Assembly: GCA_030041515.1 (NCBI GenBank)
Contig: JASHNS010000062.1
Coordinates: forward strand, 1 to 64,000
Reading direction: 5' to 3'
From: Acidobacteriaceae bacterium
Lineage (GTDB): Bacteria > Acidobacteriota > Terriglobia > Terriglobales > Acidobacteriaceae
DNA length: 64,000 nucleotides
Part shown: positions 36,316-42,860 of the stretch, in pieces
How positions within the stretch are numbered: position 1 is the first letter of the stretch
How the letters are laid out: every line of letters begins with the position of its first letter
Translations under genes and position numbers: made by a program
The notes under the pieces: generated by a model
Seen by the model: the letters and a program-made list of their open reading frames with translations, nothing else
What the model was told of the DNA's origin: nothing
Database searches by the model: none

Positions 36316-36837
36316 TTACTTGATGGCTCCGGGCTTGCCTGCCATGCGGCGCAGCAGGCTGGTCTGCCCGGTGTGGGCGGCCTGGTGGAACATGAGGATC
36401 GAGAGCAGCGTGCCGACCGTTTCATCCGGATTGTTGCGGGGCGAGGAAGGAGCCGGTTCCGCGAGCCGCTCCGGATTCAGCTTCGCCAATCCCTGCTCGA
36501 TGCGCGCGCATCCTTCGTCCCACGCGGCCAGCAGTTTTTCGAGGGGCATCGCTTCGTTTGGGTTGCGCAGGGGCGCGGACCCACGCGCGTAGCGCTGCAG
36601 CGCGGCTTCGCCGAGCACAGGCGGCTTGCCGAGCAGCTTTAGCGTGATTTCGTTGGTGAGCACGAGATGGCCTAAATTCCAGTTGAAGCAGTTACCACCA
36701 GGCTGCGGCTGAATGAGACTATCTTCCTGCGTGATGCCCTCGGCGTTGAGGCGCAGAACGCGATGAACGACCTGTATCTGTTCGCGCAGGATATCCAGCG
36801 CGCCGACGGGGGTGGAAGTTACGGTGGTTGCGGACAT
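36316..36837 (-). CDS. DinB-superfamily protein 1
   Basis: A 173-residue four-helix protein with the DinB metal triad: His57 (NWNLGHLVLTNE), His151 and His155 (MFHQAAHTGQTSLLRR). Members include bacillithiol and mycothiol S-transferases, so a thiol-dependent conjugation role is possible. AGAGGAGG lies just before ATG 36837. It is the last gene of the HxlR-led cluster, 113 bases after the MoaD-like gene; that gap holds GTTAGCGAGTTAGC-type short repeats. The substrate is unknown. Confidence 0.82.
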   Translation of the reverse strand: MSATTVTSTPVGALDILREQIQVVHRVLRLNAEGITQEDSLIQPQPGGNCFNWNLGHLVLTNEITLKLLGKPPVLGEAALQRYARGSAPLRNPNEAMPLEKLLAAWDEGCARIEQGLAKLNPERLAEPAPSSPRNNPDETVGTLLSILMFHQAAHTGQTSLLRRMAGKPGAIK

Positions 36838-36950
36838 GATTCCTCCTCTGAGGCTGGTGGTTAGCGAGTTAGCAGGTTGGCAAGTTAGCGAGTTCGTGGT
36901 GTCCTCTGCAGGAAATCTTTGCGATGGTGCGCAGCGCAGCTGCCGGGCTG

Positions 36951-37259
36951 TTAGCCTCCGGCGATGGCGCCGACGATCATCAGGGGTTCTCGCCCGCTCA
37001 GGATGGCCTCGGGCAGTGGTGTCTCCGGCGAGAGGTGCGACCAGTCTTCCGCGCAGACGAAAAAGCGGAGGAAAGGGCGGCGCTTCAGAGTGTCGTGGTC
37101 GCGGATCGCTCCACGCAGCACGGGATAGCGGGCCTCCAGCGCATTGAGCACGCGGGTGAGGGTCACCGGATCTTCGACCGCGAGCCGCACTTCCCCGCTC
37201 ACCTGCGCCAGCGTGCGCAGATGGTGCGGCATCTCGATCCTCAGCAGGCGCTCGCTCAC
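36951..37259 (-). CDS. MoaD/ThiS-family ubiquitin-like sulfur carrier
   Basis: A 102-residue beta-grasp protein ending in the diglycine VGAIAGG needed for C-terminal thiocarboxylation. The body ([43 protein letters not shown]) fits the MoaD/ThiS pattern. The GTG start at 37259 overlaps the stop of the upstream Asp-box gene (GTGA), a strong coupling. No moaE, thiG or MoeB-like activating gene is nearby, so it is probably not for molybdopterin or thiamine. A role tied to its propeller partner is inferred. Confidence 0.8.
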
Positions 37260-38425
37260 GGCAGCGTCTGCACTTCCACCGACAGCACCGCCGGCAAATC
37301 GCGCACGATGGGTTTCCAGGTATTGCCGGCATCAGGCGAGCAGTAGACCTGGCCACCGGTGGTCCCGAAATAAATGCCGCAGTCGTCGAGCTGGTCTACG
37401 CACATGGCATCGCGCAGCACGTTGACATAACAGTTCGCCTGCGGCAGGCCTTTGGTCATCGCTTCCCACTCGTTGCCACCGGTTTTACTGCGCCAAACCT
37501 GCAGCTTGCCATCGAGGGGGTAATGTTCTGAGTCGCTCTTGATGGGCGCGACGTAGATGGTCTCCGGTTCGTGCGCGTGGACGTCGATGGCGAAACCGAA
37601 ATCGGTGGGGAGATTGCCGCTGACTTCGCGCCAGTTGTCGCCGGCATCGTCGGAGCGCATCACGTCCCAGTGTTTCTGCATGAAGAGCACGCCGGGCTTG
37701 CGGGGACTCATGGCGATGTGGTGCACGCAGTGGCCGATCTCGGCGTCCTGATCGGGCAGGAACTGCGAACGCAGGCCTTTGTTGATGGGCTTCCAGCTCT
37801 TGCCGCCGTCGTCGGAACGGAAGGCGCCCGCGGCGGAGATGGCAATGTAAATCCGCTGCGGATCGTCAGGATCGAGCACGATGGTGTGCAGGCACATGCC
37901 GCCTGCGCCCGGCTGCCACTTGGGACCAGTGCCGTGCCCGCGCAGGCCGGGGAGCTCCTGCCAGGAGTGAGCGCCATCCTTCGAGTGGAAGATGGCCGCG
38001 TCCTCGACGCCGGCGTAAACGGCTTCGGCGTCGGTGAGGGATGGCTCGAGGTGCCAGACGCGCTTGAATTCCCATGGATGCTGGGTGCCGTCGTACCACT
38101 GGTGCGTGGTCAGCGGAGCGGCGGCGCTGTCGTAGACGAAGCGATTGCTCTCGCCCATGGGCCAGCCCTGCGGCGACTTTTGCTGGCCTCCGCCGGGCGC
38201 GTGCCACGTCCTGCCGCCGTCGTCGGAGCGCTGGATGATCTGGCCGAACCAGCCGCTGGTCTGCGAGACGTAGATGCGGTCCGGGTTCACCGGCGAACCC
38301 TTCATGTGGTAGACCTCCCAGCCGGCGAAGAACGGCCCGCTGACGTTCCAGTTGTCGCGCTTGCCGTCGGCGGTGAGGATGAACGCGCCTTTTCTGGTTC
38401 CTGCCAATACTCGTACTTTGCTCAT
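37256..38425 (-). CDS. Asp-box (BNR/sortilin-like) beta-propeller protein
   Basis: A 389-residue protein with repeated Asp-box motifs of the S-x-D-x-G-x-T/S-W kind: [48 protein letters not shown] and [12 protein letters not shown]. This is consistent with a six- or seven-bladed propeller. No signal peptide is seen, so it should be cytoplasmic, unlike true sialidases. It is translationally coupled to the MoaD/ThiS-like gene. Annotation as exo-alpha-sialidase would be a fold match, not an activity. It sits in the HxlR-led cluster 31 bases after the first DUF899 gene. Confidence 0.82.
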
Positions 38426-38456
38426 GGCTAGCCCTCTTTCACTGGGTGTTCTAAAG

Positions 38457-39221
38457 TCAGCCTTCGGCCGGATGGCAGTGGCATGCCGCAGGGCTGGAAG
38501 TGTCGTAGCGGTCGTGGTGTTTGACCCAGTCCATCAGATTGAAGTGCGGGCCCGTCTCGTTGCGGCCGTTGGGGGTCATGTCCAGGTACATATAGGCGGT
38601 ATCCAGCATTTCATCGCCACGGCCAAAGGTGGAATAGGTGTGAAAGATATTTCCGGCGTCATCCCTGACGAAGACGCTGTCGCCGGATCGTTCCTCGCTT
38701 TCGAAGGGCTGCGTTTTGTAGTTGTAGTAGACCTGGCGCGCGGCAATCTCGGCTTCAGTGAAGGAAACGTGGAAGTCGTAATTGAAGTCGCTGCCGAAGG
38801 AGGAAACCCAGCGGAACCGCCATCCCATGCGCTTCCGGAAGGCCTCGATGGCGGCGAATGGCGCCCGGGAGACCGACACGAAGCTGACATCGTGATGCTC
38901 CAGATGGGGCAGCGCGCCGTCGATGTGATCGGACTTGAACGAGCAGCCGACGCAGCCCTCCTGCCAGGCGGGGCCGAACATGAAGTGCTGGACGATGAGC
39001 TGGCTGCGGCCGTCGAACAATTCGGCGAGGGTGACTTTGCCGTGCGGTCCGTCGAAGACATACTCCTTCTCCACGCGCACCCACGGCATGGCGCGGCGTG
39101 CGGCATCGACGGCGTCCCGCTGCCGGGTGAGCTCCTTTTCGCGTGCCAGCAGATCGAGGCGGGCGCGCAGCCACTCTTGCTGCGATACAATTTTTCGCTG
39201 TTCAGCGATGGAAGCCGCCAT
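38457..39221 (-). CDS. DUF899 thioredoxin-like protein 1
   Basis: A 254-residue protein of the DUF899 family, which has a thioredoxin-like fold. [20 protein letters not shown] leads into [20 protein letters not shown], then the putative redox motif GCVGCSF (a CxxC) and [19 protein letters not shown] near the end. The start at 39221 is chosen because AGGAG lies nine bases upstream; the earlier ATG at 39230 directly abuts that AGGAG. The C-terminus ([10 protein letters not shown]) is Cys/His rich. A second family member is encoded two genes upstream. Confidence 0.82.
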
Positions 39222-39263
39222 GGTGGTCATCTCCTGTTCGATTCCCGGGGATTTTGCAGATCC

Positions 39264-39674
39264 TTACATCGGCTTCGAGACATTGATCATCCAGGGAGTG
39301 CCGAAGCGGTCTTCGAACATGGCAAAACCTTTCGCCCAGAAGGTCTCCTGGAAGGCCATCCCGACCTTCCCGCCCTCGGACAGGGCTTTGAAGACACGCT
39401 CGCCTTCCGCGAAGTCGTCGAAGTCGAGATTGACACGCAGACCCTGGGGCTTGCTGTAATGCGGGGGCGGGGCGTCGCAACCCAGCAGCATCTGGTCGCC
39501 CACGCGCATGGAGATATGCATCATCTTGTCGGCCCAGTCCGCGCCCACCTCCGCGGCCATAGGGCTGTTGCCATAGGTGTGGCGATAGACGACCTGGCCG
39601 CCGAGCGCCTTCTCATAATGAGCAAAGGCTTCGTCGCACTGTCCGCTGAAGTTCAGATAGGGCTGGATTTTCAT
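39264..39674 (-). CDS. PhnB-like VOC-fold protein
   Basis: A 136-residue glyoxalase/bleomycin-resistance fold protein of the PhnB type (MKIQPYLNFSGQCDEAFAHY ... MHISMRVGDQMLLGCD ... EGERVFKALSEGGKVGMAF ... DRFGTPWMINVSKP). ATG 39674 follows GGAGACACG. It lies between the two DUF899 genes (42- and 23-base gaps). Proteins of this group are often called by fold; metal binding and substrate are unknown. In this context a small reactive metabolite is plausible. Confidence 0.82.
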   Translation of the reverse strand: MKIQPYLNFSGQCDEAFAHYEKALGGQVVYRHTYGNSPMAAEVGADWADKMMHISMRVGDQMLLGCDAPPPHYSKPQGLRVNLDFDDFAEGERVFKALSEGGKVGMAFQETFWAKGFAMFEDRFGTPWMINVSKPM

Positions 39675-39697
39675 CGTGTCTCCCTGGGGTTGCACAG

Positions 39698-40483
39698 TTA
39701 TTTCGTGGAGGGACTGGCCTGGCTGCAGCAGGATCCTTTCGCTTCTGCCTCACGCCGGCGGATTGCCGCTCCTGCCGGATCGGTGAGGATATCGAGCCAC
39801 AGGGGATGAGGCGTGGGCTCGGCATCGTAGTTATCGTGCCAGTTCCACCACTTATACGGCGGAGTTTGCGGATAACCTTCCGGCGAGTCTTCCCAGGTTT
39901 CCTGGCGGCCGAGCGGGGTCACGTCGAGGTAACTCCAGGTGGATCCCATGGCCTCGTCGCCGCGGCTGTTGATGAAGTAGGTGCGGTAGACCTTGTCGCC
40001 ATCCCGGAAGAAGACGTTGTGGCCGTGCCACTGATCGACGCCGAAGTCGACATCGAAGCCGTCGGTGATGGTGTACCAGGGCATCTGCCAGCCCATGCGT
40101 TGTTTCAGGCGGGCGATGTCCGGCTGGGGCGCGCGCGAGGCCCAGGCCAGCGTGGTGTCGCGCGCGTTCAGGTGGGAAAGATGGGAAACCTGATCGGCGC
40201 CAAGAGAGCAGCCACGGCAGGCGTGGTCGGGCCATCCGAAGACGCCCGGCTCAAAGAAGGCGCGGTAGAGGACCAACTGGCGGCGCCCTTCGAACAGATC
40301 GAGCAAGGTTGCCTTGCCGTTGGGGCCGTCGAACTCATACTGTTTCTCGACCAGCATCCATGGCATGCGTCGGCGCTGGGCGGCCAGGGTATCGCGGGCG
40401 CGAGTCAGTTCCTTCTCCTTGATGAGAAGCTGCTGACGTGCTGCTTCCCATTCCTGCGGCGAGACGACTGAAGGTGTTTGCAT
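39698..40483 (-). CDS. DUF899 thioredoxin-like protein 2
   Basis: A 261-residue relative of the protein at 38457-39221. It shares KEKELTRARDTLAAQRRRMP, VEKQYEFDGPNGKATLLDLFEGRRQL and the CxxC motif in HACRGCSLGADQ, and ends with a WDxL-type TPLGRQETWEDSPEGY segment. The C-terminus adds a second vicinal pair (GSCCSQ). ATG 40483 has GGAG with short spacing upstream; the longer open frame has no ribosome site. The two copies are clearly diverged, so this is not a recent duplication. Confidence 0.82.
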   Translation of the reverse strand: MQTPSVVSPQEWEAARQQLLIKEKELTRARDTLAAQRRRMPWMLVEKQYEFDGPNGKATLLDLFEGRRQLVLYRAFFEPGVFGWPDHACRGCSLGADQVSHLSHLNARDTTLAWASRAPQPDIARLKQRMGWQMPWYTITDGFDVDFGVDQWHGHNVFFRDGDKVYRTYFINSRGDEAMGSTWSYLDVTPLGRQETWEDSPEGYPQTPPYKWWNWHDNYDAEPTPHPLWLDILTDPAGAAIRRREAEAKGSCCSQASPSTK

Positions 40484-40544
40484 GGAGCGATTCTCCTTCT
40501 CTCCGGGTTCGTCGATCCCGAAACCCGGAGCAGACCGTGCCCGT

Positions 40545-41069
40545 TCAGGCAGCAGCGGGTGTGGGCTGCGAAGGGCCCGGAGTTTCATCGGCGCTCGGTC
40601 CCCAGCTTGCCGGAACCGCTACGTCGAGCAGGCGAAGATAGACGGCCAGTTGTCCGCGATGCTGGTACCAGTGGTTGAGCATGATGTTGCGCAGGAAGAG
40701 GCGCCGCGGCAGAGCCACCACTTCCTGCTCGCCGGCGAGAACGCGGAAGGTTTCATGCATCGCCGCATCGTCGAGTTTGGGCAGCAGCATCCTGACCGCC
40801 GCTACGCCTTCGTCGAACGCGCGCAGCACTTCTTCGCGGCTGGCCGGCTGCGGGATATTGGCAAAATTCGGCGCCTGACCTGCCGGATTCTGCACGAAGC
40901 GGACGATGTTTCCCGGCACCAGAGCCAGGTGCAGCGCGAGTTGTCCGGCGGTCATGGACTTTGCGTGGGGTTTCCAGGTGAGCTTTTCTTCCGGGACACG
41001 CTCGAGAAAGCGGCGCGTGACCGGGGCCTGGTCTTCGAACTCAGCCAGAAATCCCTGGGCGATGGACAT
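40545..41069 (-). CDS. DinB-superfamily protein 2
   Basis: A 174-residue DinB protein with the triad His47 (QLALHLALVPGN), His133 and His137 (IMLNHWYQHRGQLAVYLR). The segment EEKLTWKPHAKSMTAGQLALH is typical of the subgroup that includes bacillithiol S-transferase-like enzymes. GAGGAG precedes ATG 41069. It has a proline-rich tail (GPSADETPGPSQPTPAAA). It is only distantly similar to DinB protein 1, so the two probably handle different substrates (inference). Confidence 0.82.
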   Translation of the reverse strand: MSIAQGFLAEFEDQAPVTRRFLERVPEEKLTWKPHAKSMTAGQLALHLALVPGNIVRFVQNPAGQAPNFANIPQPASREEVLRAFDEGVAAVRMLLPKLDDAAMHETFRVLAGEQEVVALPRRLFLRNIMLNHWYQHRGQLAVYLRLLDVAVPASWGPSADETPGPSQPTPAAA

Positions 41070-41104
41070 GGCGTATCTCCTCGAAGGTGAAATGCGTGGC
41101 GCCG

Positions 41105-41539
41105 CTAGAGTTTGGCGCGAAGTGGGAGCAGCGCGCGGAGGCGCGGATCGCGCAGCCACAGCGCGAACCACACCAGGACGCCAAAATAAACCGGGGAGAG
41201 TGTCGTGGTGAACAGGGGCATCTGCAGGCGCAGGCTCGAAGCCACCGCGCCACCGAGGTAGCCGGTGAGCAGGATGGCGCCGAGGGGGGCGGTTCGGGGG
41301 ATGAGCCAGAGAATCAGGCTGACGAGCAGGAGCACTCCCAGGGTTGAGGAGAGCCCGATGGGCCATCCCGCCCGGACAAACTGCGCGGCGACAGATTTCG
41401 GTGGAGCGAACTTCATCGCAACGTCGAGCAACAGGAACGCCGCGATTAATCCGGTAATGATCCAGCTGGTCACGAGCGCCCCGCGCGAAAGCCTGGGTGC
41501 GGGTGCGGCGACCCCGTTCGTTGTAACAGCCGATGCCAT
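41105..41539 (-). CDS. DoxX-like four-helix membrane protein
   Basis: A 144-residue membrane protein with four hydrophobic helices (SWIITGLIAAFLLLDVAMKF; IGLSSTLGVLLLVSLILWLI; APLGAILLTGYLGGAVASSL; YFGVLVWFALWL), the arrangement of DoxX-like proteins. AGGAGG precedes ATG 41539. DoxX relatives occur with thiol-oxidation and detoxification genes, but the biochemical role of this branch is unsettled. It lies between a secreted protein and DinB protein 2 in the HxlR-led cluster. Confidence 0.78.
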   Translation of the reverse strand: MASAVTTNGVAAPAPRLSRGALVTSWIITGLIAAFLLLDVAMKFAPPKSVAAQFVRAGWPIGLSSTLGVLLLVSLILWLIPRTAPLGAILLTGYLGGAVASSLRLQMPLFTTTLSPVYFGVLVWFALWLRDPRLRALLPLRAKL

Positions 41540-41615
41540 GAATTCCTCCTGAGGACTGCAAGCACTACGCTCGATTCGAAACGGGGCCCAAAAGAAACAG
41601 GGGTGCAACGTGCGT

Positions 41616-42320
41616 TTAGCTTCCCGCGCGGGGGTCGGGCGTGCCATCGGACCAGCGCGCGACGGGAATCATGAAGACGGTCAGCCGGTCAGGGGCGTCG
41701 TCGGAGGCAAAAACCGGGGAACCGGGAAGATTAGCACCCCAGCTGTCGCGCATGTTGAACGGCACAAAAAACATCACATGGGGATGCCAGTTTCCCTGGC
41801 CGGGGCCGAAGTAGGCCTGCTTCGAGAGCATGTAGGACATCGCGCCGGGCTCCAGCGCGGGCAGCTTGTTCTGGTTGAAGGCGGCTTCGACCGCCGCGGC
41901 GATCTGGCCTCCCGACTCGCCGGCGAGCGCGAGCCGGGTTTTGAGGAGCACGATGGGCAGATACGACTTTGCGGCGGCTGGGTTGAGGCAATCGGGCCCA
42001 CGACTTTCAGGATTCCAGTATTTGGGAGAGTCGGCGGGAGTGGCGTCCCAGGAGCGTTCCACCAGGCAGACGTAATGGTTGGTGCCGGGGACGGCCACTT
42101 TGAAGCCGTGCCTGTCCAGGACCAAAACCTCGGCATGCGCGGAGATCGAAGGCGGAGCGGCGCTGCGCGCGAGCTCGATTTCGGCGCTTCGATTCGCGAT
42201 CAGGTAGGGATCGATGGGGCCCATGGTGAGCGAGCGCGGCGGAGGGGTTTGCGCCCCCAGCGGCATGATGGAAGCCGCCATGGCTGCCAGCACCGCGATG
42301 ATCCTGATTCGTAGCTCCAT
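41616..42320 (-). CDS. Secreted protein of unknown function
   Basis: A 234-residue protein with a signal peptide (MELRIRIIAVLAAMAASIMPLGAQ). The mature part contains AEVLVLDRHGFKVAVPGTNHYVCLVERSW, KSYLPIVLLKTRLALAGESGGQIA and WHPHVMFFVPFNMRDSWGANLPGSP. I do not recognise the family. The compact, conserved-looking motifs and absence of repeats suggest a folded periplasmic domain. It is the second gene of the cluster, 42 bases after the HxlR regulator. Confidence 0.7.
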   Translation of the reverse strand: MELRIRIIAVLAAMAASIMPLGAQTPPPRSLTMGPIDPYLIANRSAEIELARSAAPPSISAHAEVLVLDRHGFKVAVPGTNHYVCLVERSWDATPADSPKYWNPESRGPDCLNPAAAKSYLPIVLLKTRLALAGESGGQIAAAVEAAFNQNKLPALEPGAMSYMLSKQAYFGPGQGNWHPHVMFFVPFNMRDSWGANLPGSPVFASDDAPDRLTVFMIPVARWSDGTPDPRAGS

Positions 42321-42362
42321 GCAGATTCTCCTTTTCGTGCCTGTGACGGAAATCGTTGCGAA

Positions 42363-42830
42363 CTACCTTTTGGGCCCACCCAGCCAGGGCAGGATTGGCC
42401 TTGGATCCCGTTCGACCCAGCGACGCCGGGTCTCCGCGAGAACCGCATCCCGATTGGCCGCCATCTGCTCGACCACCTCGCGCGGTGCGCCGGTGTTCTC
42501 ATGCCGCGCCCCCCAGATGAGCAACTCCAGCATGACCGGCGCGAGGCCGATTCCCTTCTCCGTCAGCCGGTAATTCACTTTCCGCCGGTCCTCCGGATCG
42601 GGCTCGGCTTCCACAAGCTCGGCCTGCTGCAACCGGCGCAGACGATCGGCGAGGATGTTGGTCGCAATGCCCTCGCCGGACTGCTCGAAATCGCCAAAGC
42701 GCCGAAAACCTCGCACCATCAGATCGCGCACGATCAGCAACGACCAGCGGTCTCCGAAGACCTCCAGCGAGATATTTACCGGGCAGCCGGAGCGATGATT
42801 CCTGGGGAGCTTTCCAGCCACGCAGGACAC
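42363..42830 (-). CDS. HxlR-family transcriptional regulator
   Basis: A winged-helix regulator of about 155 residues with the HxlR hallmark RSGCPVNISLEVFGDRWSLLIVRDLM, then FGDFEQSGEGIATNILADRLRRL and VNYRLTEKGIGLAPVMLEL. The N-terminal cysteine before the winged helix (Cys16 from this start) is the position used for redox sensing in YodB, HypR and QorR. Start choice is between GTG 42830 and GTG 42821; an open frame far upstream is not supported. A palindromic operator candidate lies 14-30 bases before the start. It heads ten co-directional genes and is likely their regulator. Confidence 0.85.
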   Translation of the reverse strand: MSCVAGKLPRNHRSGCPVNISLEVFGDRWSLLIVRDLMVRGFRRFGDFEQSGEGIATNILADRLRRLQQAELVEAEPDPEDRRKVNYRLTEKGIGLAPVMLELLIWGARHENTGAPREVVEQMAANRDAVLAETRRRWVERDPRPILPWLGGPKR

Positions 42831-42843
42831 ATTAGCAATTTTT

Positions 42844-42860
42844 ACTTGCGAATTGCAAGT
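42844..42860. promoter_or_regulatory. Palindromic operator candidate of the HxlR regulator
   Basis: ACTTGC and GCAAGT separated by GAATT, in an AT-rich patch (TTTTTACTTGCGAATTGCAA) just upstream of the HxlR start. HxlR/YodB-type regulators bind inverted repeats of similar form near their own promoters. The position fits autorepression. The divergent YlxP-like gene starts 103 bases away, so it could be affected as well. Confidence 0.6.

Follow-up and report, generated by a model that had tools for sequence, protein, structure and literature searches.

The window analysed here, a stretch of 64,000 nucleotides from an Acidobacteriaceae bacterium (GenBank assembly GCA_030041515.1, contig JASHNS010000062.1, positions 1 to 64,000), contains at 36316-42860 a run of ten minus-strand genes headed by an HxlR-family regulator, which the initial annotation took for a single detoxification unit. 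The lasting core of the run is a pair of genes, coding for a seven-bladed Asp-box propeller and for a small ubiquitin-like protein (Ubl); the two are adjacent in many bacterial groups, while the remaining eight genes are present in some loci and absent from others. No description of this pair was found in the open-licence literature searched, nor did any paper there join MoaD, sialidase and propeller; the main text of Iyer et al. 2006 (PMC1779556), in the part available, mentions no propeller, sialidase, WD40, glycosyl hydrolase, ArsR or neuraminidase. The two core genes are the following (pLDDT, predicted local distance difference test):

37256..38425, minus strand: core gene, seven-bladed Asp-box propeller without signal peptide (AlphaFold pLDDT 85.5; matches structure 3b7f; labelled 'sialidase' by the annotators)
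36951..37259, minus strand: core gene, ubiquitin-like protein of the sulfur-carrier type, ending AIAGG (AlphaFold pLDDT 89.6; its start overlaps the propeller stop)

Pairing of the propeller and the Ubl across Bacteria

Species-representative genomes were scanned with a profile of 21 propeller sequences, which gave at least 568 confirmed loci; the best 80 were analysed, and their propellers are 70-91% identical to that of the window, a range partly due to the selection of the best. The record titles of these 80 loci name Acidobacteria, Gemmatimonadetes, Deltaproteobacteria, Anaeromyxobacter, Gammaproteobacteria, Rhodospirillaceae, Verrucomicrobia, Planctomycetes, Nitrospira, Nitrospinota, Armatimonadota, Hydrogenedentota, Ignavibacteriales, Anaerolineae and others. 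A first query detected the Ubl in 72 of the 80, and a second profile placed it within 2 kb of the propeller in 71; among the nine misses of the latter, L111, L118, L142, L162, L174 and L181 lie at a contig edge, L113, L116 and L173 do not. The two genes are tightly spaced: for the 71 parsed cases, with the start chosen by the analyst, the median gap is -4 bases, 51 overlap, 55 are separated by 20 bases or fewer and 62 by 150 or fewer.

The same partnership is found throughout the 297 Acidobacteriota genomes searched. Strong propellers (600 bits or more) have a strong Ubl (70 bits or more) within 1.8 kb on the same contig in 39 of 40 cases; for the fortieth (G202) the Ubl is on another contig, and a broken propeller (G054) also has an adjacent one. 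Seen from the other side, three of 43 strong Ubl matches are without an adjacent propeller: G202, G297, where the contig begins, and G082, a fragment interrupted by stop codons. An early idea that the weaker propellers of these genomes (41, counted by hand) go without Ubl was dropped, since a broader profile detects a same-strand Ubl within 2 kb in 37 of them (13/16 and 24/25), leaving only L206, L217, L219 and L230.

More distant homologues were sampled from plasmids and chromids (15 propellers with 27-41% identity, from the first 16 of 39 records minus one near-duplicate), and 10 of the 15 have a Ubl within 2 kb, with additionally one split copy in L198. The order of the two genes is variable. 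In the beta- and gammaproteobacterial loci, such as that of Cupriavidus metallidurans (L196), and in some of the Acidobacteriota, the Ubl gene precedes the propeller gene; in the actinobacterial loci and the other Acidobacteriota it follows. Besides the Ubl, no gene family recurs in more than three of the first 31 divergent loci. Finally, a Ubl with an internal GISGG, a short linker and a propeller form one frame of 536 amino acids in a single draft genome (L229:1670-3277, plus strand), where the propeller match is weak. The pairing is far above chance; the changed gene order, the kept partnership and the fusion argue for a shared function of the two proteins.

Propellers without Ubl occur in Rhodobacterales and Streptomyces (L096, L097, L101, L193); that of Rhodobacter sp. 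CZR27 (L097:2589-6116) adjoins the ergothioneine genes egtB and egtD.

The ubiquitin-like protein and its activation

AlphaFold confidently predicts a beta-grasp fold for the Ubl. Its best structural match is SAMP1 (4hro, Z 12.5, root-mean-square deviation (rmsd) 1.7 over 87 residues), followed by a MoaD-related protein of Thermus, CysO (3dwg, Z 10.2, rmsd 2.4 over 87), BexX/CysO (4n6e, Z 10.2) and Urm1, for which the matches include its complex with Ahp1 (Z 10.0). By sequence, the sole solved relative is CysO (E 0.76), with an alignment reaching the Gly-Gly end, and a profile comparison with the genome's own CysO gave a weak, full-length match (25% identity, E 3.8e-6). The Pfam ThiS model PF02597 does not match the Ubl, though it does match four other genes of the genome. 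Of the 68 complete Ubl homologues among the best 80 loci, 66 end exactly in GG, as the window Ubl does. Judged from the modelled fold, the Ubl probably works like the ThiS/MoaD/CysO sulfur carriers, without being filed as a member of their family. A distant Ubl in one draft genome (L212:2264-4522, minus strand) continues in frame past SGG, like a ubiquitin fusion gene; the downstream part of that frame is presumably the GTPase TypA/BipA, a name given from the sequence.

Genes of the activating-enzyme (E1) type adjoin the pair in four of the best 80 loci, belonging by label to three phyla: a ThiF-like E1 is upstream in L150 and L177, and in L156 and L163 an E1 with a rhodanese domain directly follows the Ubl, the subfamily names being the analyst's, from the sequences. 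About 0.2 of 80 would be expected by chance, by a rough arithmetic from three E1 matches per 4.77 Mb and 4-kb flanks. The genome of the window has three PF00899 (E1) matches and a JAMM protein; a ThiF-like E1 is on contig C9, and a run of CysM, JAMM, CysO ending IAGGD and a MoeZ-like protein, again named from the sequences, is on contig C119 (L188:2341-6399). Thus, activating enzymes exist in this genome. MoeZR is described as forming the CysO thiocarboxylate upon co-expression in E. coli (PMC3227635, available excerpt).

The propeller

Seven blades can be read from the strands of the AlphaFold model, and no signal peptide is seen by eye. The protein matches Pfam PF02012 and PF15902 and carries the repeated SxDxGxxW hairpins of Asp-box propellers. 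Its solved relative is 3b7f (Reut_B4987 of Ralstonia eutropha), which matches over the full length (Z 46.9, rmsd 2.2 over 353, E 8.8e-110) and for which an Asp-box survey gives the function as 'Not known' (PMC2716378, part available).

An alignment of 21 propellers, with 27-93% identity to the first sequence, has as invariant positions K12, W124, W170, H180, S197, H235, Q250, H252, F276, F278 and R338, in addition to D150 of an Asp-box; K12, W170, H180, H235, Q250, H252 and R338 are common to 3b7f. According to the strand list of the model, W124, H180, H235 and R338 are at or near the starts of inner strands, and thus they may be placed where the active sites of propellers lie. The fold-match lists for the propeller and the Ubl named no substrate, an absence that proves nothing.

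The other genes of the run

All ten open reading frames were found on the minus strand as initially described, and the tight spacing was also confirmed: from HxlR to the last DinB gene, the intergenic gaps are 42, 76, 35, 61, 23, 33, 31, -4 and 113 bases. Shine-Dalgarno sequences had been reported for nearly every gene; a purine-rich one can be read by eye at eight of ten, but it is missing at HxlR (GTG at 42830) and at the Ubl gene (GTG at 37259, overlapping the propeller end). As for the gene names, eight are backed by Pfam (HxlR, DoxX_2, DinB_2 twice, DUF899 twice, Glyoxalase/VOC and a BNR/Vps10-type propeller), while the secreted protein and the 'MoaD/ThiS-like' protein, which is the Ubl and a beta-grasp by fold, have no Pfam or NCBIfam match at E 0.01. 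Promoter and terminator scans gave no excess over shuffles (1 vs 1.5 and 4 vs 5.7, respectively). Besides the pair, the run comprises:

42844..42860, no strand: candidate HxlR operator, a palindrome (ACTTGC-N5-GCAAGT) lying 13 bases upstream of the HxlR start codon
42363..42830, minus strand: HxlR-family regulator, 155 amino acids, GTG start (PF01638, 72 bits; N-terminal GCP cysteine)
41616..42320, minus strand: secreted protein of unknown family, rider (no Pfam/NCBIfam match; in 3 of the best 80 loci)
41105..41539, minus strand: DoxX_2 membrane protein, rider (PF13564, 53 bits; 12 of the best 80 loci)
40545..41069, minus strand: DinB_2 superfamily protein a, rider (PF12867, 46 bits; 0 of the best 80 loci, present in L056)
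39698..40483, minus strand: DUF899 protein a, CRGC motif, rider (PF05988, 272 bits; this type in 0 of the best 80 loci, present in L056)
39264..39674, minus strand: VOC protein, YjdN/PhnB-like, rider (PF00903, 32 bits; NF007537, 108.5 bits, below the cut-off of 122; 17 of the best 80 loci)
38457..39230, minus strand: DUF899 protein b, CVGC motif, rider (PF05988, 322 bits; 2 of the best 80 loci)
36316..36837, minus strand: DinB_2/mycothiol-S-transferase-like protein b, rider, after the 113-base gap (PF12867, 54 bits; 1 of the best 80 loci)

The proposal that these genes stay together as one unit did not hold up when neighbourhoods were compared in relatives and in the best 80 loci, since HxlR, DinB, DUF899 and VOC do not stay with the propeller and the Ubl, and only the pair is constant. 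Indeed, against 72 for the Ubl, the best 80 propeller loci contain HxlR in 19, VOC in 17, DoxX in 12, the secreted gene in three, DUF899 in two and DinB in one. Propeller and DUF899 protein queries were searched in the same 61 relative genomes: 42 have a strong propeller (E at most 1e-180, counted by hand) and 16 have DUF899, while every one of the 61 has weaker matches to other propellers. Forty stretches were then examined; 26 contain the propeller, always with the Ubl (26/26) and in 15 cases with HxlR, whereas the 14 stretches that have DUF899 but lack the propeller (200 kb) contain, by the queries used, neither the Ubl (0/14) nor HxlR. Two congeners (L056, L057) have eight of the ten genes each, in differing combinations, and the window resembles the two sets put together; two other congeners (L058, L059) have two adjoining DUF899 genes at sites without propeller. 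The riders, outside the core, are the secreted gene and those for DUF899, DinB, VOC and DoxX. The secreted protein contains an NWHPHVMFF stretch, and its gene is present in three copies in L079 and in two in L113.

The thiol-, metal- or VOC-type character claimed for the enzymes agrees with the Pfam families of the riders. Under various labels, the genes recurring near the pair in the best 80 loci are VOC (17), DoxX (12), YciI-like (12), SRPBCC (clusters in seven and six) and an extracytoplasmic function (ECF)-type sigma factor (five), where YciI-like, SRPBCC and ECF-type are names read from the sequences by the analyst; next to a plasmid-borne propeller copy of P. aeruginosa are genes for a thioredoxin-family protein, a sigma factor, YciI and VOC. 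These recurring neighbours give some support to the detoxification theme, but as a shifting set, and an electrophile theme appears plausible. The bacillithiol gene bshC is present in the genome of the window, so the DinB proteins could be bacillithiol transferases.

The HxlR regulator and its operator

HxlR does head the run, as first described, with both the N-terminal cysteine of the family and an operator candidate of its own. It has the winged helix of the HxlR (DUF24) family; its nearest NCBIfam model is redox_TF_RrpB, at 55.5 bits against a cut-off of 175. The cysteine is kept in 34 of 35 related HxlR matches, the exception, L125, being truncated. The sequence upstream of the gene is ACTTGCAATTCGCAAGT, and the end of the run at 42860 is also the end of the perfect palindrome 42844-42860. 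Counting the window, 33 of the 35 HxlR matches near the pair have a CTTG-N7-CAAG pattern upstream (it is missing at L077, and L125 is truncated); as two row pairs are the same place, this corresponds to 31 of 33 distinct places, where 0.006 are expected per 170 bases.

The perfect palindrome occurs once in the 4.77-Mb genome. With one mismatch it occurs in two places, while the reversed pattern is found in seven, so that the sites with one mismatch do not exceed chance; for the window alone, nine of 100 shuffles contain a site at no more than one mismatch. A wider HxlR regulon was rejected for these reasons. Since the palindrome is conserved before HxlR and perfect only once in the genome, HxlR looks like a local regulator, acting at this predicted operator; it is divergently oriented in five of its 19 loci among the best 80.

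The window HxlR is like YodB, HypR, QorR, RrpB and HxlR (DUF24) in family fold, in the conserved N-terminal cysteine and in the palindrome beside the start, but it has other target genes. Work on B. subtilis HxlR reports that the conserved cysteine senses electrophiles or oxidants in other family members, and that the formaldehyde response requires a lysine two residues after it (PMC7835342, accessible part). The window HxlR has the cysteine without this lysine, and formaldehyde sensing was discarded. No paper joining HxlR with ACTTGC, or DUF899 with DinB and HxlR, was found in the open-licence literature searched.

Proposed function and alternative explanations

The reading preferred here, with a probability of roughly 0.5, is an HxlR-controlled, thiol-themed operon built around the propeller and a dedicated Ubl sulfur carrier, of which the propeller would be the client. 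A cellular E1, probably a MoeZ-like E1 with rhodanese or a ThiF-like E1 encoded elsewhere, would adenylate the Gly-Gly end of the Ubl, which would then be converted to a thiocarboxylate. The propeller, as a cytosolic enzyme, would bind the loaded Ubl and use its sulfur on a small molecule at the channel mouth, within a putative ring of the invariant Lys12, Trp124, His180, His235, Gln250, His252 and Arg338. The genes may be expressed as a single transcript, which HxlR would repress by binding its one operator as long as no thiol-reactive signal is sensed via the N-terminal cysteine; DUF899, DinB, VOC and DoxX would be interchangeable passengers handling thiols or electrophiles, added in Acidobacteriota.

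Several observations weigh against this reading. An E1 is a neighbour in only four of the best 80 loci, and the E1s of this genome are on other contigs. HxlR is found only with acidobacterial labels among those loci (19/19), so redox regulation lies outside the core. The cross-phylum loci are mostly metagenome-assembled genomes, with possible binning errors, and single labels may be wrong; the Anaeromyxobacter oryzae locus is in a complete genome. No Ubl was detected within 2 kb of nine of 56 divergent propellers, the four from Rhodobacterales and Streptomyces included. Moreover, seven of 27 Ubl matches among relatives extend past the Gly-Gly, with long tails in L061, L062 and L074 of the same genus and one extra residue in L060, L088, L091 and L094, and so do those of L208, L212, L218, L221-L223, L235, L238 and the fusion L229. 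Such proteins would need trimming, possibly by the JAMM-type protease of the genome. The L229 fusion strengthens the partnership, yet its Gly-Gly is not free, and confidence in the carrier-client reading was left as before.

A broader proposal, considerably more tentative, is a widespread bacterial system of one Ubl and one propeller across many phyla, with the propeller directing or consuming the E1-charged Ubl; placed in Acidobacteriota under a cysteine-bearing HxlR, it might provide stress-induced charging or tagging comparable to that of yeast Urm1.

Clearly less probable than the carrier-client reading is that the Ubl is a protein modifier of the SAMP1/Urm1 kind, with the propeller as a targeting or ligase-like factor and the operon tagging proteins under thiol stress. 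SAMP1 is indeed the best fold match, with Urm1 lower, but CysO scores almost as high. Propellers often recruit substrates; the conserved residues of this one look rather like a small-molecule pocket. Moreover, no E2/E3-like family was recognised among the neighbour clusters, where no search was aimed at one. On the other side, Urm1 is reported to conjugate to the peroxiredoxin Ahp1 (PMC7016264, part available).

The original view, that the ten genes co-evolved as one electrophile-detoxification unit under HxlR, could draw on the tight spacing, the local operator, the thiol/metal protein families and BshC; it is nevertheless unlikely, and a conserved ten-gene unit was rejected, because gene content shifts both in the relatives' stretches and in the best 80 loci. 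HxlR, VOC, DoxX, DUF899 and DinB vary in occurrence, the sets in two congeners are differently mixed, and DUF899 is present in a minority of the relatives (16/61), with 14 of the examined stretches away from the propeller. The run is real as observed, but a fixed ten-gene system is not supported.

Improbable, too, is that the pair serves a modified CysO-type route of cysteine supply, with the propeller replacing CysM as scaffold or acceptor enzyme. The CysO-CysM-Mec+/MoeZR system of M. tuberculosis likewise has a small beta-grasp carrier ending GG and an E1 with rhodanese in the genome, and CysO, both as the only solved relative by sequence and as the genome's own protein, matches the Ubl weakly over its full length. 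However, the partner in the window is a propeller, which is no pyridoxal phosphate enzyme, instead of CysM; the run contains neither cysM nor a JAMM gene, the neighbour clusters that were read included no family recognisable as CysM or JAMM, and the genome already has its separate CysO run on C119.

GH74 enzymes have a catalytic acid pair and sialidases an Arg triad; although GH74 folds come next after 3b7f (Z about 28, level with lactonase-type propellers), a glycoside hydrolase or sialidase as annotated, with an incidental Ubl neighbour, was rejected as highly improbable, since neither acid pair nor triad is conserved in the 21 sequences, whose only invariant acid is D150 and only invariant Arg is R338, no signal peptide is seen, and the pairing with the Ubl is far above chance.

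Relation to known sulfur carriers

SAMP1 of archaea and Urm1 of eukaryotes, both structural matches of the Ubl, are protein modifiers as well as sulfur carriers, and to our knowledge neither has a propeller neighbour. MoaX, the fused molybdopterin synthase of M. tuberculosis, holds carrier and client in one chain, as does the L229 fusion, but its client is MoaE, whereas the partner in L229 is a propeller; the MoaX fusion is described as being cleaved to work (PMC4326299, available portion). The structure 3b7f, which has the Lys, His, Gln-x-His and Arg columns in common with the window propeller, is a solved relative without assigned function that awaits an assay.

As far as we know, the ubiquitin-fold sulfur carriers have a short list of partner enzymes. 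The pair adds a carrier partner of quite different fold, located next to the carrier in several phyla and in one case fused to it, and genes separately labelled 'sialidase' and 'MoaD/ThiS family' would join as one pair. If true, this could reveal a new way in which protein thiocarboxylates are used, or an early form of ubiquitin-like tagging.

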